NCBI GenBank assembly: GCA_027422505.1
Contig: JAPQWV010000051.1
Coordinates: 1,827,501-1,891,500, forward strand
DNA: 64,000 nucleotides
Reading direction: 5' to 3'
From: Craterostigma plantagineum
Lineage: Eukaryota; Streptophyta; Magnoliopsida; Lamiales; Linderniaceae
Shown here: positions 7,518-64,000 of the stretch, one piece after another
Layout of the letters: each line of letters starts with the position of its first letter
Position numbering within the stretch: the first letter of the stretch is position 1
The notes under the pieces: generated by a model
What the model was told of the DNA's origin: nothing
The model's input: only the letters and a program-made list of their open reading frames with translations
Databases searched by the model: none
Translations under genes and position numbers: made by a program

Positions 7518-8556
7518 GGGTAAATTCCTTATCAGACCCTATCAGAAACTAAACTTCCTTATCAATACCCCTACGAAAAATTTTTCCTGTTCAGTACCCA
7601 TCTGCAAAAAGTTGTGTGTTTAATACCCCCAAACAGTGATCAGACGGAAATACTCTTTCCTGAAATTAAGTTGGACATCATACCAACTGATTTGATTATT
7701 ATACCAACTGTTATCCTAATTATACCAACTTTATCATTATTATACCAACCGGTATAGTGTACAATTCTGTTGGTATAATTACGACAACAGTTGGTATAAT
7801 TTCTACAATTTCTGGTATAATTTCAAAATCAGTTGGTATAAATGTCCAATTTCGTTGTATAAAACTGTAAAACGTTATTTTTTGGTACGATAAGCAAAAC
7901 AGATGGTATAATTTCTACAATTTCTGGTATAATTTCAAAATCACTTGGTATAAATGTCCAATTTCGCTGTATAAAATTATAATAACGTTAATTAACCAAC
8001 TGCTTCGATTATTATACCAACTATCATTCTAATTATACCAACTTTTATCATTATAATACCAACTGGTATAGTGTACAATTACGTTGGTATTATTACGACA
8101 ACAGTTGGTATAATTTCTACAATTTCTGGTATAATTTCAAAATCAGTTGGTATAAATGTCCAATTTCACGATATAAAATTATAATAACGTTATTTACCGG
8201 TACAATAACCACAACATATGGTATAATTTCGGTAATTTCGGGTATAATTTCAAAATCAGTTGGTATAAATGTCCAATTTCGCTGTATAAAATCATAATAA
8301 CGTTATTTACTGGTACGATGACCAAAACAGATGGTATAATTTTTACAATTTCTGGTATATTTTCAAAATCAGTTGGTATAAATGTCAAATTTGAAGTGTG
8401 AGACAGGGGTATTTTCGACTTATTAACCCTGAAAAGACCTTTTTAAGTACTGAACAGGAAGAAATTTTCAAATGGGTAGTTATAAGGAAGAAATAATTCG
8501 AGGGGTATTTAAGAGTAATTTGAAAACTCAAAAGGTACTGTTAAGGAATTAACCCC
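7518..8556. mobile_element. hAT-like non-autonomous TIR element with internal tandem repeats
   Basis: Long imperfect inverted ends (left GGGTAAATTCCTTA, right end inverted GGGGTTAATTCCTTA), with similarity continuing for over 100 bp, are flanked by a perfect 8-bp duplication TTATATTT (7510-7517 and 8557-8564), the hAT length. The centre holds about five copies of a 113-118-bp unit, rich in TTGGTATAA motifs. No transposase is encoded. Confidence 0.82.
7692..8396. repeat. Internal tandem repeats of the hAT-like element
   Basis: Units start near 7786, 7905, 8096, 8212 and 8327, each with the order TGGTATAATTTCTACAATTT, then TTTCAAAATCA, then TTGGTATAAATGTCCAATTT. A spacer of inverted TATACCAAC motifs occurs at 7692-7785 and again at about 8000-8095, giving a higher-order period of roughly 308 bp. 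Confidence 0.85.
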
Positions 8557-10841: not shown

Positions 10842-11102
10842 ATTACATCGTCAAAAAGAGTTTTGCAAATCAATCAAGCAGTAGCCTGCCTATCTTCAGC
10901 ACATTCTTCGCAAAAAGAGTTTAGCGAATCAAAAAGATTACATCGTCAAAAAGAGTTTTGCGAACCAATCAAGCAGTAGCCAGCCTATCTTCAGCACATT
11001 GCTTCGCAAAAAGAGTTTAGCGAACCAAAAAGATTACATCATCAAAAAGAGTTTAGCGAATCAATTAAGCAGTAGCCTGCCTATCTTCAGCACATTTCTT
11101 CT
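10842..11102. repeat. Tandem repeat, about 95-bp unit, 2.7 copies
   Basis: Units begin ATTACATC at 10842, 10937 and 11033 (periods 95 and 96) and contain AAAAAGAGTTTTGC, AAGCAGTAGCC and CTATCTTCAGCACATT. Inside the CACTA element; function unknown. Confidence 0.88.
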
Positions 11103-31189: not shown

Positions 31190-31710
31190 AAAGCTAAATG
31201 GCACAGAAATTATGTCTGACACTTTGATAAATATTAGTGTTACCATTTCAGTTTGAAAATCGGATTCAGACCCATGTCAGAAATGTTTAGTTTCAAGGAC
31301 CCGATTTCTACAGTACCACTTCACTGTTCTGCAGTACCACTTCATTGTACTACAGTACCAATGCAGTAACACTTTATTGTACTGCAGTACCACTTCATTA
31401 TTCTACAGTACCACTTAATTGTTACTGCAAAATAATGAAGTGGTACTGCAGAACAATGAAGTGGTACTGCAGTACAATGAAGTGGTAGTGCAGAATAATG
31501 AAGTGGTACTGAAGAACAATGAAGTGGTAGTGCAGAACAATGAAGTGGTACTGCAGAACAATGAAGTGGTAGTGCAGAACAATGAAGTGGTGCTGCAGAA
31601 CAATGAAGTGGTACTGCAAAAATCGGATCCTTAAAACTAAAAATTTTCTGATAGGGGTCTGAAACATAAATAAAACTTATGTTGGGGTCTGACATCAAAT
31701 TGCCCCTAAT
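31190..31710. mobile_element. Fold-back element built on a 21-bp minisatellite
   Basis: Imperfect long inverted arms (left includes TTCAGACCCATGTCAGAAAT and AAGGACCCGATTTC; right includes the complements GGATCC and TGATAGGGGTCTGAA) flank two opposed arrays of a 21-bp unit. The right array (31,437-31,625) has nine units GAAGTGGTACTGCAGAACAAT in exact 21-bp register; the left array (about 31,310-31,420) has five or six decayed units on the opposite strand. ORFs here are by-products of a 7-codon period. No target duplication identified. Confidence 0.75.
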
Positions 31711-39090: not shown

Positions 39091-40824
39091 TGTTGACCTT
39101 TTTGGTCCATGTGTGTTAGAGAGTTTTGATGGACAATGTAATTGTAATAACGTTAGATCTATAAATTAAGCAATTCGATCTATGATCAATATAATGTCTA
39201 AGTATATGAAAATATTCACACATGCATTGATTATGAGCTATAGATTGATTAAAGTGTTGAATATTTGATTCGCATATGATTTGGTGATTAATTGATGAGA
39301 CTAGGTGAACGCATGTTATAGACATCCCATGAGATAGGATATATCGTACTGTGCTATATATGGAAATAATGCATGAGATATCCTACTGAGTTATATATGG
39401 AAAATATGCTGTTTATATATGGAAAGTGATATACCCGTTGATACTTGATTATTCCTGGACGAGAATCACATATACGATCTATGCATAACTTCCACGGAAT
39501 TTAATGTGCAATATTGAATTAATATGTTTCCTTATGCTGATTGGAATATTATATTTAGGGAAGATTTGATTTGATTGACTTTGTGGATAAGATGCTATTA
39601 TATGGTGTGTGCTATAAACGGATGTGATCTCTGAAATAAGGAAAGTTCCGCCATGATTTGATAAATCGAATTAAGTGTGTTCTGATCTGATTTGCGTGCT
39701 AAACATGCTAATTATATTGATCTAATACTATGAGTTGTACATGGAAAACGTGCTGATATGATGCTATCTTGTGTGTTATATTTGGAAATTAATTTGGATC
39801 GACTTACACTAGAAACATATAGCAGGGAATCACTTATGGAATGTCCTGATATGGTAAATATATGCGAGGTAATTGAATATGCATGAGAACAAATTTGGAT
39901 CTTTATATGGAATATATTCATGCTTAAATGAGCTCTTATATGGAAAAATCATGCTTTAATGTGCCATGACCGTTGTGATGATTTATTAAAAAGCATGATT
40001 TTATATGGCATGTTGACTTCGAAACTTCATAGAAACTATGCTTGATTGTGTGATTATTATATGATATGATTTTCCATGTGAAGTGCGAATTGAAAGGTTT
40101 ATATACATGCTACACTTCATAATCTCAACGACTAAGAATTTGCGAATATAAGCCTACGAGAGATATTTGAGCAGAAAGATACTAAGAGATTCCTGAGCCT
40201 TCCATTTGCGATAGCTTTCTGCCTTACTGAGCGTTAACTTGCGATTCCATCACTGAGCGAGTGATTCATCTGATATTCCATCATCCCCTCCATATATTCT
40301 GTTTTCGGACGTGTTGTCTTCGGACGTGAGCAATACCAAGGAGGCAAGGTCGACGTTTACGCACACGTGAAGGGAAGGACGAGTTCCGGGGGCCCTTCGG
40401 TAGCGAGCTGTGTCTGTCGGGATCGAGGAGATTCCGAGGAACGAAACTCGGCGTGTGGTAACCTAGTAGTGACTAGTGCACGACTTGTTTCGGTTGTGTA
40501 TTGGGCTAACCAATCAGTTTTGTAACCAGCTACGGTGCATTATAGTGATTGGTTAAACTCTTGGGAAGCAAATCCCAAGGAGAGGAGTAAACCCCAGTTG
40601 GTGATATAACCTCTATAAAAATCCTGTCTCGCATTTACTTTTCGGTTATTCCTTTATCGTTGTACAGACCCGACACACATCCGACGGTACTAGGATATAT
40701 CAGGCATACTCACCACCAACGTTAGTAGGCATATCTAAGTTACTACACTTAGAATTTGTGAAAAGAAGCATAAAACCTTTATAAGCCTAATTCACCCCCC
40801 CTCTTAGGCACATTTATATCTTCA
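39091..40824 (+). repeat. 5' LTR, 1734 bp
   Basis: Starts TGTTGACCTT, ends TATCTTCA just before the primer site. Has many TATATGGAAA motifs. Shares its first about 420 bp and last about 290 bp with the 3' LTR; the 1.04 kb between is absent there. Confidence 0.93.
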
Positions 40825-40826
40825 TT

Positions 40827-40838
40827 TGGTATCAGAGC
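40827..40838 (+). other. Primer binding site, tRNA-Met type
   Basis: TGGTATCAGAGC two bases inside the 5' LTR edge. Confidence 0.95.
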
Positions 40839-40883
40839 GGTTTACTCAAACGACGGGCCTAACATGCCTGAGTTAAAGATCTA

Positions 40884-42465
40884 ATGGCTTCTTCGAGATT
40901 TGATTTTTTGCAGAGGGACAATCCCATTCCAGGCCACCACTCTTCGACGGAACCAACTACGCCATATGGAAAAACCAGATGAAGGAATTTCTGCTTGCCA
41001 CTGACTATGATCTGTGGGATATCATCACTACTGGACCTTACACTCCTAAGAAGGTGGATGGAACTCCAAAGAAAGGTTCTGACTACGATTCAACAGATAA
41101 GCGAGGAATCTCAATGAATGCCAAAGCAAAGAACATGATCGCCTGCGCGCTTACGAGAGAAGAATACAATCGTGTGAGTGCATGCGAATCTGCCAAAGAC
41201 ATGTGGGACATGCTTCAAGTTACGCATGAGGGAACCACTCGAGTTGTACAAGAAAGAATAGCCCTTCTAACCCACCATACGATCTGTTCAAAATGGAGGA
41301 CAACGAGACCATAAGCCACATGTACGCCAGATTCATGAATATCATCAATCAAATGTTCTCATTGGGAAAGAAAATATCGGATGGTGAAAAGGTGCGAAAA
41401 ATACTGAGATCTCTCCCAAGAGAATGGAATCCCAAAGTAACTGTCATCTACGAACCAAAGGACTTGGACGAACTCTCCGTCTCAGAACTGATCGGATCCC
41501 TAACCACCTACGAGATGACTCAGATCTCTATCAAAGAAAAACCACCAGCTCGAAACCAACCAAATATTGCCTTCAACACGGAACAAGACAATGATTCTGA
41601 TGGAGAAGAAGAAACTGAGGAATACTTGCTGGAGCAGATTGCCATGCTAACTAGGAGGTTCGAAAAATCTCGACTGAGAAGGAAGTTCAAAGGAAACTCC
41701 AAGTTCCAACCTAGGAACAAGGGAATATCGTCATCAGGGAACAATGTGCAGAAATGCTTCAAGTGCAACAAGCCAGGCCACTTCGCCTCAAACTGCCCGA
41801 TGGAAAATGGTGACAAAAAGATAAAGAAGCAGAAAGCCATGGTCACCAACTGGGAAGAGGCTGAAAGTGAAGAAGAGGAAGATCTCGCCTACATGGTCAA
41901 TGATAATGATCAGGTATCTTCTTCATCCATTATTAAGAAAATACTCTTTCTAAATGAATTATATGATAGGCAAGATGAATCTCATGATAACGTTTCCTCA
42001 GTTCCTGAAGTAGATGAAAAGGAGAAGATGTTTGAAATAATTCAAAACGCAGAAAGAAGGATTAAGACGCTCAACTCACAAGTGAAGAGTCTGATTAGGC
42101 AAAGAGATGACATAGCTAGAGAGAAACATCAAACACATCTAGAAAATGAGCGCCTGAAAGCCGAGCTAGAAACTCTTAAGGAAGAGAAAGTCTTGTGTAA
42201 TTGCGAAAAGCTTAGGAAGCAAGAAAACATATCTAGAGACATGTCCATTCGTAACGATTTCTTAGAAGAAAAATCTCGTACTAATGACAGACTTCTTGTA
42301 GGACAACAAAATCTCAACATGATACTTAGTCTTCCTAGACCTGTTGGAAAAATAGGGATAGGATATTCCACAACACCTAAGCATGCTGCATCCTCACAAG
42401 ATTTTAGAAAGCCTAATTGTTTTTCATGTGGCCATCACGGTCATTATGCTAACAACTGTTTTTGA
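40884..42465 (+). pseudogene. Sirevirus gag, frameshifted
   Basis: From ATG 40,884 (MASSRFDF), a one-base shift near 40,935 precedes PPLFDGTNYAIWKNQMKEF; UBN2-type gag continues with DLWDII, AKAKNMIACALTREEYNRV and, after another shift near 41,275, FKMEDNETISHMYARFMNI. A CCHC knuckle CFKCNKPGHFASNC lies at about 41,757, an acidic and coiled-coil region follows, and a second CCHC CFSCGHHGHYANNC ends the ORF. Two knuckles around a long coiled coil fits Sirevirus gag. Confidence 0.9.
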
Positions 42466-45400
42466 AGAAAGCTGATAAAACTAGATATATCTGGAGGCCA
42501 AAGCAGATTCCTAAGAATCAAAGTTCTAACACTGGCCCGCCTGTGTTTGTGAGATCACAGTCTATGACAGATGATATATCATGTGTTAACAGGAGTTATT
42601 TTGCCACTAACCTTTTAGGACCCAATCGAAGTTGGGCACCTCAGAAAAGAACTGATTCATGCAGGTACAAAGAAGAAAATCCAGCAAGAAAAACAAGTGG
42701 TACCTCGACAGTGGGTGTTCCCACCATATGACAGGTGATATCAGTAAGTTTGTGTCGGTGAAAGCATATGACGGAGGATATGTCTCCTATGCCGACAATA
42801 CAAAAGCTAAGATTATTGGAGTTGGAACTGTTGGTAACACTTTACATACTACTAGAGATGACGTATGGTTGGTTAAGAATCTAGAACATAACCTCATTAG
42901 CATTAGTCAATTATGCGATAAGGGTCATAAAGTTACTTTTGAAAATGATAAGTGTGTAGTTAGAAATGATTCTTTTCAGTGCATCTAGGGATGGAAATAT
43001 CTATTGCATAACTCTTGATGATATCACTGACCAAAATGTCAAGTGTTTAGCAGTTACACAGGATAACACCTGGTTATGGCACAGACGCCTAGGACATGCC
43101 AATATGGAATTACTGTCTCATATCACAAGCAATGCACTAGTACGAGGTGTTCCTGACATAAAGTTCGTCAAGGACAAAACATGCAAGGCGTGCCAAATGG
43201 GCAAGCAGACCAAGATATCGTTCAAAGCAAAGAATGTGATATCTACATCCAGACCTCTGGAATTACTGCATCTCGACCTTTTTGGTCCTGTTCAAACGAT
43301 GTCTCTGCGAGGTAAACGATATGCCTTCGTCATTGTTGATGATTATTCCAGGTACACTTGGGGGATATTCCTTGCACATAAGAATGGGGCACTAGATAAC
43401 TTTGCATCACTGGTGAAGAGACTAGAAAATGGAAAAGAAATGAATCTGTGTAGGATACGTAGTGATAACGGACTGGAATTTGATAGTAAGTCATTTGCAT
43501 CATTCTGTGATCAGTACGGATATAGTCATAACTTCTTTGCCCCTATAACTCCCCAACAGAATGGCGTAGTTTAACGTAAAAATAGGGTATTACAAGAAAT
43601 GGCTAGATCTATGTTACATGAGTATGATATTCCTAAACAGTTCTGGACGGAAGCTGTTAGTACAGCTTGTTATGTGTCTAACCGTGTCTTCCTTAGGCCG
43701 ATATTAAAGAAGACTTCTTATGAAATCTGGCATGGTAGAACTCCAAATATAAGTTACTTTCATGTGTTTAGATGCAAATGTTTTATCATGAACGCTAGAG
43801 ATAAGAGAGGAAAATTTGACTCTAAGGTTGATGAAGGGATATTCCTTGGTTACAGTCTTCACTCTAAGGCTTATCCCGTTTATAATAAGAGGAAGCTGAC
43901 TGTTCAGGAATCCATACATGTTACTTTTGATTAGATACCTAACGCAGATGCTACTGATGAGGAAGGTATAGATTTGCCCTGTGCAGAATTACATGTTACT
44001 AAAGACGGTGAGGACGATATTCCAGAACACGAAAATTTTGAAACACTGGAACCAGAGGCTGATGAGCTGCAACCTAGAAAATGGAAGCATGCTTCCAGTC
44101 ATCCAACAGATCAAGTAATATGGAACATCAGATCTGGAATCAAACTCGAGCGACTGCACGAAATCAGGATACAGTGGAATCCCATGATGTACTGCTCTCC
44201 ATGATGGAACCTAAGATAGTCCATGAAGTCCTGGACGATATCTCCTGGGTCTCTGCCATGGAGGATGAGCTATTTCAGTTTGAAAAGAGCCATGTGTGGA
44301 CACTCGTAGAGAGACCAGATGAAAAATCCATCATAGGAACCAAATGGGTCTTCCGCAACAAACTCGACGAACACGGATAAGTCACTAGAAACAAAGCGAG
44401 GTTAGTTGCAAAAGGTTATTCCCAGGAGGAAGGTATTGATTTCGATGAAACTTTTGCTCCGGTAGCTAGATTAGAGTCTATATGTGTCTTACTTGCATAT
44501 GCATGCTTTAAACGCTTTAAACTTTTTCAAATGGACGTAAAAAGTGCATTTTTAAATGGTTTTATAAATGAAGAGGTTTATGTAGAACAACCACCGGGCT
44601 TTGCTAGGGAAGATTTTCCAAATCATGTTTTAAATTGAATAAAGATTTATATGGTTTAAAGCAGGCTCCTAGGGCATGGTATGAAAGGCTAAGTAAGTTC
44701 TTGATTGACATAGGATTTTCAACTGGAACTATTGATAATACACTGTATATTAAGTACGAAGGTGATCACATGATACTGGTCCAAATCTACGTTGATGATA
44801 TCATATTGGAAGTACTAATATCCTTCTTTGCGAGGAATTCTCTAAGTATATCCAATGCAATTTCCACCCATATGCATCAGACCACCAAAACAGACTGTGA
44901 TGAATCAGGTACACCAGTTGATCAAACAGAATATCGAGGTATGATCGGAAGCCTTCTTTACTTAACTACTAGTCGCCCTGATATTATGTTTGTTGTTGGT
45001 ATGTGTTTGAGATATCAGTCTGACCCTAGGGAATCTCACTTGACAGCAGTCAAGCGTATACTTAGATATATCAAGGGTACTGTGAATTTTGGTCTATGGT
45101 ATTCATATTCGGATGAATTCACATTAATGGGATATTCCGATGCCAACTATGCCGGCTGTAGGGAAGATAGGAAAAGTACTAGTGGAACTTGCCAATTACT
45201 TGGAAATTCCCTGGTAACTTGGTCTAGTAGAAAGCAAAATGCTGTCGTCCTCTCCACAACCGAAGCTGAATATATCGCCTTAGGAAATTGTTGTCAACAA
45301 GTTCTTTGGATGAAACAAACCGTTAGTGATTTCGGGCTAGGTTATGATAAAATTCCTATTCTGTGTGATAGCACTAGTGCCATTAGTATTACTAAGAATC

Positions 45401-45609
45401 CCGTGCATCATCCTCGTACTAAGCATATCGAGGTTAAACATCATTTTATACGAGACCATGTTCAGAAGGGGAATATCAGTGTGGAATTCGTAGGAACAAA
45501 TGATCAGCTTGCTGATATCTTTACGAAGCCCCTAATTGAGGCAAGATTCTGCAGCATCCGTGATCGATTGGGAATTATCGAGCTAAATAAGGTTAGTAAA
45601 TCTGTCTAA
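42466..45609 (+). pseudogene. Sirevirus pol: protease, integrase, RT, RNase H; several lesions
   Basis: Protease KWYLDSGCSHHMTGD (about 42,690); pre-integrase WLWHRRLGHANMELL and CKACQMGKQ; integrase with LDLFGP, IVDDYSRY, IRSDNGLEF and TPQQNGV followed by a TAA at 43,572; further stop at 43,932 (TAG) and 44,378 (TAA). RT motifs [32 protein letters not shown] and YVDDII are present, but right after YVDDII a base is missing and roughly 60 residues of RT are lost before ESGTPVDQTEYRGMIG. RNase H is readable: SDANYAGC, STTEAEYIALG, CDSTSAI, HHPRTKHIEV, ending LGIIELN. Not functional. Confidence 0.92.
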
Positions 45610-46151
45610 TTCTATCATTTGCTCTAGGTTAATTTATTTTAGGTAGAAATTCATAGTTATCCTATCTTAATACATTCATTCAGCCCTATCTTAAGACATT
45701 CATTCGTAGTTTTCCTTAAGTGTGGCCTTCATATTTTAAGAAAAGATTTGTAGTTATCCCATTCAAAGACATTCTTTCAGCTATCTAGACTATTTTAGGA
45801 ATATTCGATCTTCTGGATCTGTGTTTTAAATGTGATTAGGTTATTCTAGGAAGGAACTCATAGATATCTTTCCAGCCGTTCAGTTATTTTAGGGAACTCA
45901 TTTAATTAAAATATATTCCTATCCAACCCAGTCAAATCCCTTCCATAATTATGAGATCCCGTCAAATCAGTCTGATACTTCTGACAGTTTTCTTCACCTC
46001 CTTTTGAAATTTCAAATTTCAAATTTTAAATTCCATCCTTATCTCTTCCAAACATAAACCGACCCATCTCCTTCAAAAATCAGAACCGTCCTTCAACTCT
46101 CATCATTCATTCATCTTCTCCAAATTTCCTACCAAACCCTAATCTCTGAAA
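45610..46151 (+). other. Spacer between pol and env-like ORF
   Basis: T-rich non-coding; contains two to three degenerate copies of a CCTATCTTAA-GACATTCATTC motif at 45,660-45,775. Confidence 0.5.
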
Positions 46152-47677
46152 ATGGCCAAAACATCCACACCCAAAGCAGCCACTAAGGAATCCTCTAGCC
46201 GAAAACGCAAGGAACCCACCTCGGATGAATCCCCGCTTGAATCTTCTCCCAAATCACCGGAACAAGCCTCAGCCTCATCACCCTCTGTCCGAAAAACCCG
46301 TTCCAAAGCCAAGACAGTTGAGAAAGTTACATCCCCTTCTAAAGTTCACAGGAAGAAGAAGGAGAAAGGCAAGAAGTCCAGTCTCACTCCCACTTAAACC
46401 CCTGTCAAATCGCCGGAACCTGAAAAGTCTGCCTCTAGCCAAGAAGTCCCTGTTCATGAGGAAACCCAGAAAACGCCTCCGCAATCCCCAACTCCTGAAA
46501 CAACCCAGAAATCCCCTTCTCCACTTGAAAAGGCTTCGCCGTCTCCACAGCCGACCCCAAAGCCTTCTAATACCCCGTCTGTTGATCTGTCCAAGCCAAA
46601 CGAGATCCCAGTCGAACTGCTGTTTCTGCAAGAGAGCAACCGCACCAACTACTAAAGCTTCAGCAAAAGAGATATCGCTCGGGGTCGTGGAGTTGCTTCC
46701 GACAACTTGCCTGAAGGAACGGTTATCACATGATTGAAAGATTTCGGCTGGGAGCAATTTCTCAGTATCAACACGCCCTACTTTCCTGAAGCTGTCAAGC
46801 TTTTCTATGCCAACTTCGATTATGAAGAGTTCGAAGGGCACATCACCATTCACTCTTATGTTCTAGGCCGAAAAATAGAATGGACCACTAAGACTATGAA
46901 TGCCATGCTTGGGGTTGCTGATGAAGTCCTCTGTCATTACGACATGAGCGACTGGTGTCATGCTGATGAGTTTGACCTCAGTGATGTCCTTCGTACACTC
47001 TGGAATACCCGCACCAAACCTCGGTTTTCTGACGGAGAGGCCCTGAACCAGCTCCTTATCGACTTTTTCTTCCTACACAAACTGCTCAACATGACCCTCT
47101 AGAGTGCGAAAATAGGCAGTGGCGGCCACTCGACGACCATGAACTTCATGAGCACCTTCGCGGTCTACATGATATCCCAGAACCGCAGATTTAACTTAGG
47201 ATATATCGTCATGAAGCACATGATTCAGGCCATCGAGAGCAAGGACAAGGCACTGCCCTATGGAATGCTGCTCACTCATCTTTTCGAGAGTGAGGGTATT
47301 ATTATGCCGCCGGCTTGGGAGATAAGGTTGTCCATGTAGTGGAAATTGTGACCCTAAAGCGCGTGGGAATTCAACACTCCAAGAGCCAAGGTTGGTTCAA
47401 GGCAAAGGAGAACAGGTCCGTCGACAGTGCTCAGAAACGGTCTGCTGCGAAGGGAAAAGCGAAGGTCAAAAGCGACGAGGACGACGACTATGAGGATGAG
47501 CTCAGTGTAGGGAAGGAAGGATCTCAGTGTTGCGCCACGATATCTCAGATATCAAGGCTGATAATCAGAAGCGCTTCCGCAAGCTGGTCAAGAAATCCCT
47601 TCCTAAACCCGCCGATTCTGAAACATCTTCAAGCCAGTAGGCTGCCCCGCATGATCCATGTTCTTATTTGCTCCTAG
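46152..47677 (+). pseudogene. Env-like ORF with a putative plant transposon protein domain
   Basis: ATG 46,152 opens MAKTSTPKAATKESSSRKRK, a Ser/Pro/Lys-rich low-complexity region with a TAA at 46,395. The folded part (46,734-47,102) reads FLSINTPYFPEAVKLFYANF, EGHITIHSYVLGRKIEW, TMNAMLGVADEVLCHY, then a TAG; it continues at 47,139 with MNFMSTFAVYMI and LTHLFESEGIIMPP. The SP-F-E-V-FYAN ... V-G-IE pattern matches the domain annotated as putative plant transposon protein. Position after pol gives the name env-like; no envelope role is shown. Confidence 0.75.
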
Positions 47678-47991
47678 GAACTTCCGCTCTGTTACCGTTT
47701 TTAGCTCTTAAGTGTGCCTCCCGCCTTTTTGATGATGAAGGCGGAGTAGTAAGGTAAGAACTAGGCGATTAAGATCTAGGTATTTTGGTAGTTGGTGTTT
47801 AGGGAAGTTCGTTGAACCCTTATCTATATAATATTTGCTTTTACGATATATCCTTGATACTTCTATGCGTTCTCAATATTTTACTCTGATCTCCGGATAT
47901 ATCTGTGCTGATTTCTAACTGTGAAAATTGACTTGTGTGAGATTTCTTGGCTGATATGATTATATGATTGCATGAATCATGCTTGGAAAAT

Positions 47992-48308
47992 GCACTTAGG
48001 CAGGGGGAGCTCAATCACGGGTAAATTTCGAAATTTTTGTACTCAGGATATAACGTAAAAATGACATGATATATCTGCACTTAGACACGGGGAGCAAAAT
48101 TATTCACGATATATCTTTGCATGTCATATAGATAAATGCACTTAGGTAGGGGGAGCAAATATGTATCATATGTGATTAGAAAATATCATATGCTCTGTTT
48201 TGCAAATTGTTGAACACTTAGATATATGCGCTAGCACTTGTGAAATTGAATATGCTTACATGCTTATGTGCTGCATCAATTACATGTCATCATCAAAAAG
48301 GGGGAGAA
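47992..48308 (+). other. Multiple polypurine-tract-like motifs before the 3' LTR
   Basis: The motif GCACTTAGG-AGGGGGAGC occurs at 47,992-48,010, 48,077-48,095 and 48,138-48,156, and the final AAAAGGGGGAGAA abuts the LTR at 48,308. Only the last is positioned to prime plus-strand synthesis; repeated tracts are a described Sirevirus trait. Confidence 0.8.
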
Positions 48309-49746
48309 TGTTGACCTTTTTGGTCCATGTGTGTTAGAGAGTTTTGATGGACAATGTAATTGTAATAACGTTAGATCTATAAATTAAGCAATTCGATTTA
48401 TGATCAATATAATGTCCATATGAAAATATTCACACATGCATTGATATGAGCTATAGATTGATTAAAGTGTTGAATACTTGATTCGCATATGATTTGGTGA
48501 TTAGTTAATGAGACTAGGTGATCGCATGTTATAGACAGCCCATGAGATAGGATATATCGTACTGTGCTATATATGGAAATAATGCATGAGATATCCTACT
48601 GATAGAGCTGTCAAAATGGTGGGCCGGGCCGGGTTGGCCCGCCGCCCGCCAAAGCCCGCCACTTGGCGGGGCGGGGCGGGCTGGCCCGCCATCTGGTGGG
48701 CCTCAAAATGGGGGACCGGCCCGCCCCGCGGCGGGCCGCGGGCTGGACGGGCCAGGCCCGCCCGCCTATGTATATTATTTGTATTTTTATTTTTATTTTA
48801 GAAAATTAGTTTTAGTTAATTAAGGTATTTAATAATAAATTATGGATAAACAACATATTAATTATATCTTATATAAGAATAGAAATGTAGGAGTGCTCTC
48901 ATTGCGACACGTGTCAAATATAATTACTTATAATAAATAAAATATAAACAATAAAAACTACCCATTATCCCATGTTATACAATAACTATCCACTCTAAAT
49001 ATATAATTTAATATTTCCACCATTAAATGATAATTATATAATTTAATACCGTGCATCTGCACGGGTAAAAAAACTTTTATTTATAAATATATATGTTATT
49101 AATTATGGTATAATTAATGAATCATTAACTATTAAATTAATATATTTAAACATAATATATAATATAAAATATATATAATTTTATTAAACTGCCGGGCCAG
49201 CTCGTGGGCCAGCCCGCCCCGCCCCGTCAAGCCCGCGACCCGCGCGGGCTAGCCCGCGGGCCTTAAAAAACCCAGCCCAGCCCGCCCCATATACAGGGCG
49301 GGGCGGGCCGGGCCGCGGGCCATTTTGACTGCTCTACCTACTGAGTTATATATGGAAAATATGCTGTTTATATATGGAAAGTGATATACCCGTTGATACT
49401 TGATTATTCCTGGACGAGAATTACATATACGATCTAAGCATGCCTTCCACGGAATTTAATGTGCAATATAGTGATTGGTTAAACTCTTGGGAAGCAAATC
49501 CCAAGGATAGGAGTAAACCCCAGTTGGGGATATAACCTCTATAAAAATCCTGTCTCGCATTTACTTTTCGGTTATTCCTTTATCGCTGTGAGACAGATCC
49601 GACACACATCCGACGGTACAATGATATATCAGGCATACTCACCATAGTAGGCATATCTAAGTTACTACACTTAGAATTTGTGAAAAGAAGCATAAAACTT
49701 TTATAAGCCTAATTCACCCCCCCTCCCATGCACATTTATATCCTCA
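48309..49746 (+). repeat. 3' LTR, internally deleted and carrying a MITE
   Basis: Starts TGTTGACCTT and ends TATCCTCA. Without the 734-bp MITE and its 8-bp duplication it is only 696 bp, because a segment matching about 39,511-40,545 of the 5' LTR is missing; the junction is GTGCAATAT|AGTGATTGG. Confidence 0.93.
48603..49336. mobile_element. hAT-type MITE inside the 3' LTR, 8-bp TSD, empty site known
   Basis: Ends TAGAGCTGTCAAAATGG...CCATTTTGACTGCTCTA are inverted repeats extending into GC-rich GGGCCGGGC-type sequence; flanked by CCTACTGA on both sides (48,595-48,602 and 49,337-49,344). The 5' LTR at about 39,385-39,395 shows the uninterrupted target with one CCTACTGA, proving insertion. Confidence 0.95.
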
Positions 49747-50039
49747 ATTTGTATTTGACTTCAATTTTGAATCCTAAAATCGATATGAAGGGTCCTACTT
49801 TCACACCTCCGTACATCTCCCCAGTACCACTCATTACACTCCAAACACTTGATTTTTGTAGTAATAATTTTAAATAATCACTTGATTCAACAAAAAATAT
49901 TTTATTAACTTATTTTCCACTAAATCAATAATATTAATTACATGGAGTATTAAACAATTATTAATTAAGTCATTTTAACCTATGACACATTTAGAACTAG
50001 CAAAAATGCTCGTGGTCCGTGGAACCGCCCGCCCCACCC
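49747..50039. other. Flank of the Sirevirus insertion, nothing recognised
   Basis: AT-rich; begins with the ATTTG duplication, continuing the sequence interrupted at 39,090. Confidence 0.5.
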
Positions 50040-51085
50040 CTAGTACTGTCAATTGGGACCGCGGGCCAGCCCAAGTGACCGGGCTGATTTCTCAGGCCCG
50101 CCAGAGGACGGGCCTATGCGGGTAGCCAGCGCGGGCCGCGGGCAGGCCCACAAAAATTATATAATATTTTTTTAAAAAACAATTATTATATAAATGAATT
50201 ATATAGGTTTTTCATATTTTTTGAGATCCAATTTTTAATTAATCAAATATTAACATAAATAAATTCTTATATAAAGATTTTAAATTTGATTAGGAATAAT
50301 TCAACTTCATTCATTATTTTAATGTTTTTTATTTTTTTATATAATTTTTTTCATTTTTATTTCTTTAGGACGGGCGGGCCCACCAGGCCCGCTACCCGCG
50401 AGTAGGGGGTGGCGGACTGCCATTTCTCAGGCCCGCCGGAGGGTGGGCCTATGCAGGTAAGTCAGCGCGGGCCACGGGCAGACCCGCCTAAATTAGAAAA
50501 TATTTTTTTAAAAAATTATTATCGTAATAAAATTATATAGTTTTTTTTATATTTCTTGAGATCCAATTTTAAATTAATCAAATGTAATAACCTAAGTAAA
50601 TTTTTGTTGAAGAATTTAAATTTGATTAGGAGTAATTCAACTTCATTACTTTATTTTAATGTTTTTTATTTTTTTATAAATTTTTTTAATTTTATTTCTT
50701 TAGGACTGGACGGGCCCAACAGACCCGCTACCCGCAAGTAGGGCGTGGCGGACTGCCATTTCTGAGGCCTGCCAGAGAGTAGGCTTATGCGGTAAGCCCG
50801 CACGAAAATAATTGTTTTTAGAAAAACTTTATATATAAATGAATACAGATTTGTTATGTTTTTTAGACCAGTTTTTAATTTAATCAAATTTAGTAATAAA
50901 ATAAATTCTTATTAAAGAATTTAAATTTGATTAGGAGTAATTCAACTTCATTAATTTAGTTTAATGTTTTTTCCTTTTTTGTATAATTTTTTTGTTTTTG
51001 TTTTTTTTTTTGGACGGGCCGGGCCAACCAAGCCCGCTACCCACGAGTAGGGCGGCGCAGGACTTCATTACCATGCCCGCTAGAT
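50040..51085. repeat. Three tandem GC/AT mosaic units of about 315-335 bp
   Basis: Each unit has a GC-rich block (GGACGGGC..., AGGCCCGCCAGAGG-type, CTACCCGCGAGTAGGG) followed by about 220 bp AT-rich sequence with TTTGATTAGGAGTAATTCAA and CTTCATT. GGAC blocks begin near 50,368, 50,702 and 51,012. The left end TAGTACTGTCAATTGGG looks like a hAT-type terminus. Confidence 0.82.
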
Positions 51086-53777: not shown

Positions 53778-56700
53778 ATGGGGTCTGAAGCTAGCGATCG
53801 TGATACAGTTGTCACTCAAATTAGCGTTGGTGGGCTTGAAGATTTTGTCACCGCAAAGATCCTTTCAGACTACCTCGAAGACCAAATCGGGATGGTGTGG
53901 AGGTGTCGGTTAAAGACATCCTCAACGCCGCTAGAATCTTATCCAAATTTCGAGGCAGATCCCGAACTTGTAAAGGGTGATAACAACTACATGAAGGTCG
54001 AACCCCATGCTTACGTGCATTTCGCACTTCCCCGTGCTGCAAAAGAAGCATTCGAAGCAGCTGATTGTGGCAAGCTTGTGTTGGGAGGTAAGCCGCTAAA
54101 GGTTAGTTTGGGGCTGGAAAACCCTCGTCGCGTGAACGAAAGAAGGCGTACAACAACACCGTACAAAATGTCTGATATTTTTCTTGAGATTGGAGCCATG
54201 AGGAGCAGAGACGAGTTCGTCGTGGGTTGGAGGAGTCCTCCTAATGGGGTCGATTTTCTCGTGGATCCTTTCAATGGGACGTGCAAGATACTCCTCACGA
54301 AAGATGTTGTCTTCTCTTTTAAAGGGGAAGCTTGTCCGCCCGCTGTAATAAAGTGCAACATCAAGCTCGAGTTCTTGCCGAGGGAAATTAACATAATAAG
54401 GAGTGGCAGAGATTTTTCTTCCCTTATCATCTCATTGCAGCTGGCGTCTTCGCCTTTTGTTTATTACAGAACGGCTGATGATGATATTGAGGAGTCTGTG
54501 CCTTTCGATCTGTTGGACGACGATGATCCATGGATTCGCACTACCGATTTTACTCCCAGTGGAGCCATTGGAAGGTGCAACACGTATAGGATCACTATGA
54601 AGCCTCGTAATGGGCCAAGTCTGAATAGGGCCTTAGACTATTTGAGAAGACGTAGGGTTCCAATTCTCGATGTTGGCGCTAGGCAACCTATTAAGGTTTT
54701 CGATGAGCGTGATTTTGGGTTTCCAATGTCGGACCCCTTTTACTGTGCACAGTACGTGAAGAATGTAACATTCAAGGTTGTGTTTCTGTTAAACGCTGTG
54801 ATCCACAGAGGGGTGATCAATCAGCATCAGCTGTCTGACTCCCTTCTCGATCTTTTGAGAAGTCAATCAGAGGAGCTCAATTTAGTGGCTCTGAAGCATA
54901 TGTGTTCCTACAAGCGGCCCGTGTATGATGCTCCGAAGGCGCTACATTCCGTGCAGAAATGGCTGCTGAACAACCCTAAGCTACTCGAGAGGCGTGAGAT
55001 GGCTGATATCGTCGAAGTACGTAGGCTGATCATAACTCCATCTAGAGCTTACTGTCTTCCGCCCGAAGTAGAGCTGTCGAACAGAGTGCTGAGGCATTAC
55101 AGACATTTAGCTGATCGGTTCTTGAGGGTGACCTTCATGGATGAAGCGATGCAGACCCTTAACAAAGGTGCTCTCACTTACTATCTTGGTCCCATTGTGA
55201 GGAACATCACATCGAACTATGGCCCGCAGAAAACGGTAATGTTCAAGAGGGTGAAAGATATTCTGACCAGTGGGTTTTACTTATGTGGTCGGAGGTACAC
55301 GTTTCTTGCGTTTTCAGCCAATCAGTTAAGAGATCGCTCCGCTTGGTTCTTTGCTGAAGATAGGACCACAACTACTGCTCAAATTAGGAAATGGATGGGA
55401 AGATTTACTGATCGTAATGTCGCGAAATGCGCTGCAAGGATGGGACAGTGTTTCTCCTCAACCTACGCTACCGTTGAAGTCCCCAGCCAAGAAGTCGACG
55501 CCGATCTCCCCGACGTTAGGCGAAACGACTATGTCTTCTCCGATGGTATCGGCATTATTTCGCCAGATCTTGCTAACCAAGTTGCAGAGAAGCTTCAGCT
55601 GAGTCGAAGCCCTCCGTGTGCCTATCAGATCAGATACGCAGGCTTCAAAGGCGTTGTTGCATGTTGGCCCCCTAATAGAGGCGCCGGTATTCGCTTATGC
55701 CTTAGGCCCAGTATGAAGAAGTTTGATTCTCAGCACACGATGCTCGAAATCTGTTCATGGACGAGATTCCAGCCGGGATTTTTGAACCGCCAGATCATCA
55801 CCTTGCTTTCTGCTTTGGAAGTTGACGATGACATATTCTGGAAAATGCAGGAAAACATGGTCTCCAGGCTCGACGGTATGCTCACAGACTCGGACACAGC
55901 GTACGATGTCCTTATTACATCGTGTGGAGATCTTGGCATCACGGCGGCCATCATGCTCAGCGCTGGTTTTACGCCTCAAACCGAGCAGCACTTATTCGGT
56001 ATGTTGAGGAGCATAAGAGCAGCCAAAATTGGCGACCTTAGGGAACGGGCTAGGATATTTGTTCCTTCGGGTAGGTGGTTGATGGGCTGCTTCGATGAGT
56101 CTGGCGTGCTTGAGCAAGGCGAGTGTTTCGTTCAGGTCTCAAGTCCTTCGGTAGCAGAGTGCTTTGTCAGTCATGGGGGGCAGTTTTCTGAGACTAAGAA
56201 AGACTTGCGAGTTATTGAAGGTTTAGTTGCTATTGCGAAGAATCCTTGCCTTCACCCTGGAGATGTGAGGATTCTCAAGGCTATCGATAGGCCTGACTTG
56301 CATCATTTGTACGATTGCTTGGTTTTCCCTCAGAAAGGGGACAGACCGCACACCAACGAGGCGTCGGGCAGTGACCTTGATGGCGATCTCTATTTCGTCA
56401 CTTGGGACGAAAATCTCATCCCTCCGAGCAAGAAAAGCTGGACCCCTATGGAATACGCTCCTGGTGAGGTCAAACAAAATCCGCGAGAAATTAATCAAAG
56501 AGTGAGTTTTTCGGTCAAGCCAATTAAATAGTGCCATATAGCCTGCTGAAACTTGGAAGTAGTAGGGTTTATATTGGGCTGCTGTTTCCTTCCTTTGCTC
56601 TTTCTTAAGGGCTAGGAAGAAAAACATGATTGATACTGATATTTTTGAACTTTTCATTGTTATTCTGCAACAATTTCTAGATTGATTGATTGTTTTTGTT

Positions 56701-57695
56701 CTCGTAAATTATGAGGTTTTACAAGCTGTTGAGAATCCTGGGATTGACTAGTTTGCCGTCGTATTATCAAATCGTAAAGGCTTTCTTCAACGTGATGATA
56801 ATAACACGCTCTTGGCGCAGGACATTATCAACTTCTTCACGCAGAACATGGTGAACGAAAGCCTGGGCTCCATATGCTACGCCCACGTGGTCCATGCTGA
56901 CATCAGCAAACAAGGCGCCTTGGACGAGAAGTGCATCAAGCTAGCCGAGCTCGCAGCGACTGCCGTCGATTTCCCCAAGACGGGCAAAGTAGTTGTGATG
57001 CCCCCGACCTAAAACCCAAAATGTACCCAGATTTCATGGGCAAAGAGGAGTTTCAGACCTATGCATCTACGAAAATTCTGGGCAGGCTCTACCGTAGGGT
57101 AAGAGACGCTACCGTAACTGATTCAACTCCGCCTGAAAACACCATCATAACGTACGATAAAGAGCTCGAAGTTGAAGGCTTCGAGGATTTCATATCAGAG
57201 GCATGGAGCTGCAAGTGTAACTACGATGCGCAGCTAAGCGGGCTTTTGGACCAATACAAGGTTTACAGAGAGGAAGAGTTAGTCACGGGGCACATATGGT
57301 CCATGCCAAAGTACAGCAGCAAGAAACAAGGAGAACTGAAGGAGAGGCTAAGGCATGCTTACAACTCACTCAGAAAAGAATTCAGGAAAGTTTTCGAATC
57401 ATTGGGTGAGATTTACGGTGGGATTTCTGACGAGGAAAAGAATACTGTGTACGAAAGGAAGGCTTCGGCTTGGTATCAGGTAACTTACCATGAGAAGTGG
57501 TTGAACGAGGGTAAGGAGTTAAGGGCTCTCCACGACGAAGATTATGCTCAGAAAAGCAGTGTCATGCTTAGCTTTGCTTGGATAGCTGCTGACTACTTGG
57601 CTCGGGTCAAGATTAGGCATGGAATGTCCGATGAAAACTCAATCTCTGACAAACCTATCGATTCTCTGCGAAGATTCTTAGCTCATCGAATCTGA
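53778..57695 (+). CDS. RDR6: RNA-dependent RNA polymerase 6, with a one-base frameshift in exon 2
   Basis: RDR6 copies aberrant single-stranded RNA into double-stranded RNA, feeding DCL4/DCL2 for trans-acting siRNAs, transgene silencing and antiviral siRNAs. Exon 1 is 53,778-56,501 (908 codons), exon 2 56,821-57,695, GTGAGT donor and GCGCAG acceptor at the position I recall for RDR6. Visible: N-terminal RNA-recognition-like region (VTQISVGGLEDFVTAKIL), DDDDPWIRTTDF, CLPPEVELSNRVLR, YAGFKGVVACWP, and the catalytic DLDGD in ASGSDLDGDLYF. In exon 2 the frame breaks at a run of five C (57,001-57,005): MPP is followed by a stop at 57,010, while the next frame continues KPKMYPDFMGKEEF to the natural end (AHRI, stop 57,693). 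As read, 971 residues instead of about 1199; the catalytic core is kept, about 230 C-terminal residues are lost. A sequencing or assembly error is a real alternative. Confidence 0.95.
56502..56820 (+). other. RDR6 intron
   Basis: 319-bp intron, GTGAGT...GCGCAG, T-rich, between NQR and DIINFF codons; phase 0. Confidence 0.9.
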
Positions 57696-58072: not shown

Positions 58073-60715
<2,643 letters not shown>

Positions 60716-61715: not shown

Positions 61716-64000
61716 TTACCTGAAAATGGATGGCTGGTGAGCTGTGTTCGATAGAGAGGCGAATATTGACCTCAAACGCTCTGTGATCGCCGTAAAGGAA
61801 GGCCTTGCCTCGGGATTGGCCAGCCAACACTGCTCCATAAGTTGTCTCCAATTAGGGTCGCATTGTTCGGGGATACGTGGTCGAAGAGTGTTCTTTACGA
61901 TTCCTCCTACAAGTTCTAATAAGCGTAACTATGTAGTAAAAGCTGATGTAGATTTCCAGTTCTACGATGTTCGACGAACCTATTATTGCCCCACAATGCA
62001 TGTTCGCGTAAGGCTCCTCTCCGGTAAGAATCTCCCACAGTGTTATGCCAAATGAGAACACGTCGACCTGTTGGGAATCGGCGTTCGTATGGTATAGCGA
62101 TTGCTTATGCTGAAAATGGTAGGTGAATTGCAGCCAAAGGAGGGAAGGGACAAAAAAAGTTGAAAAGTTGCTTACTTTTTCAGATACGCGCATTGTACTG
62201 CCATTCAATAATTCGGGAGCCATCCATGGAAGGGTCCCACGAACGCCGCCAGAGACTAAAGTGTTGCGCTTAATTCTTGAAAGTCCAAAGTCTCCGACCT
62301 GAAAAGAATTCGGCAGTGTTTGGTATTTACCGTAATTGTCCGTGACAATAAAATCAACGGTTATCTTTGACAGCATCTATCATTATGGAAAGGGGAGGAT
62401 ATAGATTGCAAACCGTAGCATTTGTTGAAATATCTAAGTTTTGTCATTATAAGGAAAGCTATTACGTGTTTGATACTTCACAACCCAGCCAACCTCCCAA
62501 GAATTATTAATTAGAATGCATGTTTCAAATAAACACTGCATGACAGTTTCGAAAAGAAACTTTAACCTTATATTATCTTTACAAAATGGAGGTACCTTGC
62601 ATATGGGTCTTTGTGGATCTCGGAGATTGACTAAGAGATTATCGCATTTCAGGTCGAAATGTACGACATTTTTCGAGTGCAAGTACTCCATCCCAAAGGC
62701 TGCATCCATTGCGATTATGAGCTTTTTGCGAAAGTCTAGAAGTCTGCACCATGCAAACATTAGAATTCAAGGCATACAAATACTATATGAGAACGTATAT
62801 ATGTAAAAGCCAAGGAAGAAATCGTGTACTTGTCTTTCTTGATTAGGGCATTCCTAAGAGATCCATTTGCCATGAATTCCGTCACAGTAGCCAAAGTCCC
62901 ACCAGCACCATCTGGCACTACGCCGTAAAATGCAACAACATTTGGATGGTGAAGGTTTGATAGAATACGAGCTTCTCTCCAGAAATCTTTTGCCTGAGAA
63001 AGAACAAAAAAACATAACTTTGGAAATGCCCTCTGTGAAAGGGTTTAAAATAAGGTAAAAACACGTGATACAGTGACCAAATAGCGAATGCCTTACCAAT
63101 CTTTCTTGTTCGGACGATCTCCCAGAAAAGCAAGATTTCTTAATTCTCTTGATGGCAACATCCGTTCCTCTCCATTTCCCATAGTATACCGTCCCGTATG
63201 TGCCAGATCCCAATTCACGTACTTCTTCAAGATCCGCATTTTTAATTATCTGTACGACATTGATGATAAAGTAAGTTCGTCTATCCACACACCATCTTAA
63301 AATGCAGAAAAACTTATATCAGAGTATCTATGGTGGGATTTTGTTGTATCTACTAGTCAATTATGTTCTGACAAGAGATTGAAAAGGAACAGCAACAGTC
63401 GAGAAATATTGCATCCAACAATCAGGAACTAAGTTAAATCATGTGACATCAAACAAAAACCATGATTTAGAGGAATAACGAATAATACCTGGAGACCATA
63501 TATGTCCGCCTCCATTTCGGCTATCATTGCATCGCTAAACAAATCATCTTTTTGACCATCGGCATCAGTCTCCTGCATCAATTGGAAAAGGAAACCTTAA
63601 CGCCAGGATATATGCAAAAGATTATAACACATAACATGAGAATGAAATTTAGGCATTACCCCTAAATCCAAATCTTGTAACATGCTCTCAGCTTCTGTTG
63701 CAGATGGAGATAAAACATCCCCATTTTCTGCTTCTCCAATATTAGCAGCTGACCCAGTAAGATCGTTCTTTGGGGCTGCACGAACCGGGTTCTGTTGGTT
63801 TTCATCGATATAATTTGTCACGTCATCATCAATAAGAGAAACTTCCCTCCCCAGGTTAGCAGTAGGCGGGATTTCGCACCACCCAATATTGGCAGGAACC
63901 TTCGTCCCATTCATATCTACATGGCCTTGCACCCAAAGTTCTTGAAAACCAAAATCTCTTGATTCCCGGGGAGACTGAACCTGACATGAAGCTACATCAG
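61716..64000 (-). CDS. Raf-like MAPKKK (group B, PB1-type), C-terminal kinase half; 5' end beyond window
   Basis: Ser/Thr protein kinase of the plant Raf-like group. Exons on the minus strand: beyond 64,000-63,660; 63,572-63,489; 63,249-63,097; 62,993-62,830; 62,743-62,596; 62,298-62,176; 62,067-61,980; 61,906-61,716, all GT-AG and in frame. Visible: acidic linker ([19 protein letters not shown]), glycine loop [17 protein letters not shown] lysine, catalytic loop [58 protein letters not shown] and [12 protein letters not shown]. The HFD in place of HRD and the [13 protein letters not shown] activation segment are typical of the PB1-containing Raf-like subgroup; the PB1 domain itself would be left of these exons in the protein and outside the window. 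The TAA at 61,716-61,718 is the first in-frame stop. Confidence 0.93.

Follow-up and report, generated by a model that had tools for sequence, protein, structure and literature searches.

The window, a 64,000-nucleotide stretch of contig C51 (C51:1827501-1891500), carries a gene that we assign to plant RDR6, followed by two genes on the opposite strand. Its main features, in window coordinates, are:

53778 to 56501, plus strand: RDR6 exon 1, an open frame of 908 codons that includes the DLDGD core
56502 to 56820, plus strand: RDR6 intron, GTGAGT...GCGCAG, phase 0
56821 to 57695, plus strand: RDR6 exon 2, frame broken inside
56821 to 57012, plus strand: in-frame start of exon 2, 63 codons, with a premature TAA at 57010-57012
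57001 to 57005, plus strand: run of five C, which is six C in L002, L003, L004 and L006 and CCTCCC in L005 (copies described below)
57006 to 57695, plus strand: shifted end of RDR6, 229 codons, with the normal stop at 57693-57695
58073 to 60715, minus strand: KAT-type peroxisomal thiolase gene with 14 exons, intact in the window copy
61720 to 64000, minus strand: protein kinase gene, incomplete at the window edge, with open exons and a kinase domain split into two pieces

The assignment of the gene at 53778-57695 to RDR6 is based on its domains and its relatives. A Pfam profile search placed the N-terminal, RDR6-specific domains RBD_RDR6 and RDR6_2nd (PF24572 and PF24577) above the cut-off and matched the RdRP domain (PF05183) at 3.8e-153, and the translation contains GSDLDGD. 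These domains lie in exon 1, with the end of RdRP in the first part of exon 2; the shifted 229-residue part had no match in the Pfam copy used. Protein searches with exon 1 scored only the 7996 candidates sharing most words, and among the best 120 of 416 matches the closest relative was the Sesamum RDR6 (76%). The best match to exon 2 reached 69%, and none of the matches listed was a same-species protein with an intact RDR6 frame. The gene grouped with RDR6 of Lamiales, at a fork supported by 100/99 in a mixture-model tree and at starred forks in a quick tree.

Positions 57000-57012 read G CCCCC GACC TAA. The preliminary description had reported that one C was missing from this run, where six would keep the frame, that RDR6 consequently stopped after 971 residues and that the 229 codons downstream were well preserved in another frame. 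All of this is borne out: sister copies have six C at this place, the 908 codons of exon 1 and 63 further codons lead to the TAA, and a frame of 229 codons opens at 57006. When aligned with 102 full-length relatives (1100-1300 residues, taken from the 120 listed of 416 found), this downstream frame had changes in none of 33 near-invariant columns, and therefore it is not a chance open frame. In exon 1, 4 of 232 near-invariant columns were changed, a level reached by 8 of the 102 relatives. Because the codon column at the shift varies among the relatives (P in 25, S in 22, A in 17 and F in 14 of 102), the window by itself leaves the identity of the lost base ambiguous; the two nearest sister copies, with six C, show that it was a C.

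To place this lesion in its genomic context, we searched the assembly from which the window was taken (1,712,718,254 bases, 1.71 Gb, in 6262 contigs). The search with exon 1 revealed six RDR6 loci:

L001: C51, the window copy, stops at 971 residues
L002: C56, open for 1199 residues
L003: C51, in inverted orientation, open for 1199 residues
L004: C12:23922334-23928057, open for 1199 residues
L005: C7, open for 1199 residues
L006 and L007: C1327, one copy in pieces, L006 being broken at places other than the window lesion

The frames of L002 to L006 were read with the exon structure transferred from the window. L006 has one two-base insertion and two one-base deletions. Other long matches of the exon 1 search, at about 35-46% identity, presumably represent other RDR genes. 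A DNA search with exon 2 found extra RDR6 exon-2 fragments on C3 (C3:13281060-13281892) and on C12, both with six C. A continuous frame of about 1200 codons, absent from the window copy, is thus present in four of the five other copies. The preliminary description had proposed looking for a further RDR6 locus in this genome; there are five, four of them intact, and its suggestion that the plant would have an RDR6 lacking the C-terminal region did not hold.

The window copy is very similar to two of the intact copies. L001 differs from L002 and L003 at 6 and 5 of 2724 bases in exon 1 and at 2 and 2 of 875 bases in exon 2, or about 0.2% over the exons, and neither of these closely related copies has the disabling lesion. 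Since both read six C, the loss of one C is private to L001 in this assembly. L004 has a mosaic structure: its 5' flank (34 of 1489 bases different) and exon 1 (35 of 2724) are near the window copy, whereas its intron is near L006 (7 of 333 different, compared with 69 of 305 relative to the window), as is its exon 2 (6 of 875, compared with 27 of 875). Gene conversion or an assembly join are possible explanations.

We also examined the neighbouring genes across the assembly. For the KAT-type thiolase there are six places, full or nearly so, which share their contigs with the six RDR6 loci; another thiolase type, of about 66% identity, occurs in at least six places (C734, C394, C120, C17, C1 and C57); all of these place counts are lower bounds. 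As both types have six places, the six-fold copy number looks general, and the assembly appears to be about six-fold, either polyploid or with several haplotypes kept apart. Identity of the KAT-type thiolase to the window copy was 98% for the inverted C51 segment, 97% for C56 and 88-89% for C12, C7 and C1327. Thiolase directly adjoins RDR6 on five segments; the arrangement on C12 differs, with a partial thiolase beside L004 and a full thiolase about 20 kb away beside the RDR6 exon-2 fragment (disturbed neighbourhood at C12:23900111-23926557). The thiolase beside L003 (C51:651916-654524, minus strand) has a 1-bp deletion at codon 167 and a 2-bp deletion at codon 251, both outside homopolymers, and the RDR6 of L003 is intact. 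On the C56 segment, RDR6 and thiolase are both open. The two C51 segments thus show reciprocal decay, the window having an intact thiolase and a broken RDR6 and the inverted segment an intact RDR6 and a broken thiolase.

The inverted near-copy on C51 extends over 648-708 kb, matching the window, and 900-904 kb, matching 1.630-1.640 Mb, at about 91-99% identity; no match was found between 1.10-1.11 and 1.43-1.44 Mb. It is either a real inverted duplication or the product of haplotypes joined by the assembler. The same pattern, a segment and its inverted near-copy on one contig, is one that assemblers can create, and it bears on whether L001 as assembled is a real locus at all or a joining of haplotypes or repeats on C51. 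We consider such a joining very unlikely, given that the two segments are 1-5% different along most of their extent and carry different insertions, that no palindrome was found at 1.26-1.28 Mb and that C56 holds a third distinct copy.

We then estimated how old the lesion could be by simulating neutral drift with indels under a simple model. The 5% upper bound on its age was about 0.02-0.03 neutral substitutions per site. The simulated probability that the downstream frame stays open was 0.13 at 0.02 and 0.04 at 0.03 substitutions per site, and that of an open frame that also keeps its invariant codons was 0.03 at 0.02 substitutions per site. Together with the two sister copies that differ by about 0.2% and lack the lesion, this limit agrees with the earlier view of a very recent lesion or an error: the lesion is young or it is not real.

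We favour, with a probability of about 0.63, young and real decay of a redundant RDR6 copy. In the proposed sequence of events, the window would hold one member of a set of six homologous RDR6 copies, the assembly being about six-fold; one C would have been lost from a run of six in L001 only; the resulting frameshift would give a 971-residue product that keeps the catalytic core and lacks the last 229 residues; and, with other copies encoding full-length RDR6, the loss would be tolerated and L001 would be decaying. Three elements of this reading are inferred: a deletion that is real in the plant, expression of the intact copies, and a truncated product without function. The alternative to be weighed against decay is a consensus error, in which the plant has six C in L001 too and one was dropped during assembly. 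This is a reasonable though less probable explanation. Homopolymers are the commonest place for consensus indels, and six C in a row are typical of such sites; in addition, the frame after the lesion is otherwise undamaged, with none of the 33 near-invariant columns changed.

The substitutions of L001 bear on this choice. Pair counts in the RDR6 exons gave private nonsynonymous and synonymous changes of 2 and 0 for L001, 2 and 4 for L002, and 2 and 3 for L003. Both private changes of L001 affect near-invariant residues:

56025 to 56027, plus strand: residue 750, Q to K, with Q in 102 of 102 relatives
56878 to 56880, plus strand: residue 928, N to Y, with N in 100 of 102 relatives

This residue list is confined to codons at which the other five copies agree, which drops some changes, such as D837N in L003. 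Q750K and N928Y count for decay, as an isolated indel error would not explain changes at conserved residues, but two private substitutions are few events. Frameshifts elsewhere also inform the comparison. Six frameshift events were seen in the RDR6 and thiolase copies, in a tally for which we read every RDR6 copy (six), three thiolase copies out of six and part of the kinase gene in two copies. Five of the six lie outside homopolymers and only that of the window lies inside one, which suggests that real loss of redundant copies is common, unless the assembly is error-rich outside homopolymers too.

To compare the window with its two nearest segments, we aligned it with the inverted C51 segment and C56 in 24,576 three-way columns from nine chosen collinear blocks, omitting stretches absent from C56. 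The private changes of the window, the inverted C51 segment and C56 numbered 188, 147 and 165 for substitutions, 29, 20 and 13 for one-base indels (12, 11 and 4 of these in homopolymers of at least 4), and 16 each for longer indels. The somewhat larger one-base indel count of the window points mildly to error or to faster decay. Although the window copy thus has the most one-base indels, as a consensus error would predict, the excess is mild and its private substitutions are also the highest. Within the window, LTR pairs and local duplications contained 2 one-base indels in 1,499 aligned bases, and the exons of the thiolase and kinase genes are intact, which further argues against an error-rich consensus. 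The assembly oddities, namely the inverted duplicate on C51 and the mosaic L004 with its disturbed C12 neighbourhood, weigh on the other side, against decay.

Splicing, or slippage of the ribosome or during transcription, could in principle bypass a real deletion in L001 and still allow full-length protein. Exon 2 contains 78 GT-AG pairs, each of 60 bases or more, that would restore the frame, but each removes conserved coding sequence and none is established as a good splice site. The C run is short for slippage, and the sister copies encode the full frame directly. We regard a bypass as hardly credible. For the favoured reading of decay, the question is what the truncated product would lack. 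The shifted 229 residues match residues 934-1111 of AtRDR2, a solved structure, in the conserved C-terminal part. Because this conserved region is lost, the 971-residue product is most likely non-functional. Decay of the L001 mRNA is possible as well, since the stop in the last coding exon leaves a long tail.

That the plant truly lacks full-length RDR6 is exceedingly improbable: the truncated window copy is the one observation in its favour, and four copies in the same assembly are open for 1199 residues. RDR6 deficiency follows neither from decay nor from a consensus error. The effects on tasiRNAs and antiviral silencing that the preliminary description had raised are likewise not expected, because four copies are intact, provided that at least one is expressed. 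A broken RDR6 copy beside intact ones is an ordinary case, and the plant has not lost the gene. This removes a possible claim of a plant without functional RDR6, and it illustrates that, in a plant genome with several copies of a gene, one frameshifted copy reveals little about function before the others have been counted. If the deletion is real, it provides a small example, open to dating, of how a duplicated silencing gene decays. A more elaborate joint reading, which we consider very improbable, is that the six segments of a fast-evolving polyploid Lamiales plant are in reciprocal fractionation, one having just lost RDR6, its inverted C51 sister having just lost thiolase and a third keeping both, and that the 971-residue product, with its intact catalytic core, may still be produced and may influence how the full-length copies synthesize double-stranded RNA.

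Such a loss of an RDR6 copy is already known, as Nicotiana benthamiana carries an RDR6 pseudogene alongside one functional RDR6 (PMC11186921). In both cases, an RDR6 copy would be lost in a polyploid and another copy would supply the function; here, however, there are six loci, four of them intact, a very young one-base lesion and a Lamiales plant. This pseudogene beside a functional gene is a closer parallel than the natural loss of RDR1 in some Nicotiana, to which the lesion had been likened. The RDR1 loss of the N. benthamiana LAB strain (PMC11186921) also produces a premature stop in a host RDR gene, but it affects another RDR gene, arose by a 72-bp insertion and left no intact copy, whereas intact copies exist here. 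Within Lamiales, a report on Utricularia gibba describes two RDR6 copies and a truncated DCL3 confirmed by RNA-seq and 5' RACE (PMC8333044). That case is likewise a truncated silencing gene checked against assembly mistakes; by comparison, the truncation in the window is read from the assembly, and intact copies exist. Engineered rdr6 N. benthamiana plants are described as sterile with small leaves (PMC12274081), consistent with selection for retaining one copy or more. The Arabidopsis allele rdr6-1, an insertion in exon 2, is described as possibly weak (PMC350667). In the literature examined on RDR6 loss, pseudogenes, truncation and natural variation, we found no natural RDR6 pseudogene besides that of N. 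benthamiana.

The species falls within Lamiales, and the protein matches listed include no close relative of it. In the quick tree, the terminal RDR6 branch of the window had a length of 0.33; other Lamiales rows had 0.05-0.22, and Genlisea had 0.47. The intact thiolase also had a long branch, at 0.20 where the median of all rows was 0.049. A relaxation specific to RDR6 along the entire branch was therefore rejected in favour of a lineage that evolves fast, as both genes have long branches. The share of the window in the tree length was 0.087 for the part after the shift and 0.061 for exon 1; Genlisea, which has a full-length protein record, showed a similar excess (0.117 and 0.089). The quick tree joined the window with Genlisea (SH-aLRT 87). 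The mixture-model tree left this pair open, and an AU test (p 0.41) neither rejected nor showed it, so that kinship with Genlisea (Lentibulariaceae) is possible.

Elsewhere in the window, positions 39091-49754 hold a Copia-type retrotransposon of about 10.7 kb. Its repeated ends are 92-97% alike in three blocks with different spacing, and look as if each carried its own insertion. Tandem arrays were found at four places:

7680 to 8392: periods of 21 and 112-113 bases
10842 to 11101: period of 96 bases
31306 to 31618: period of 21 bases
50087 to 50798: period of 336 bases
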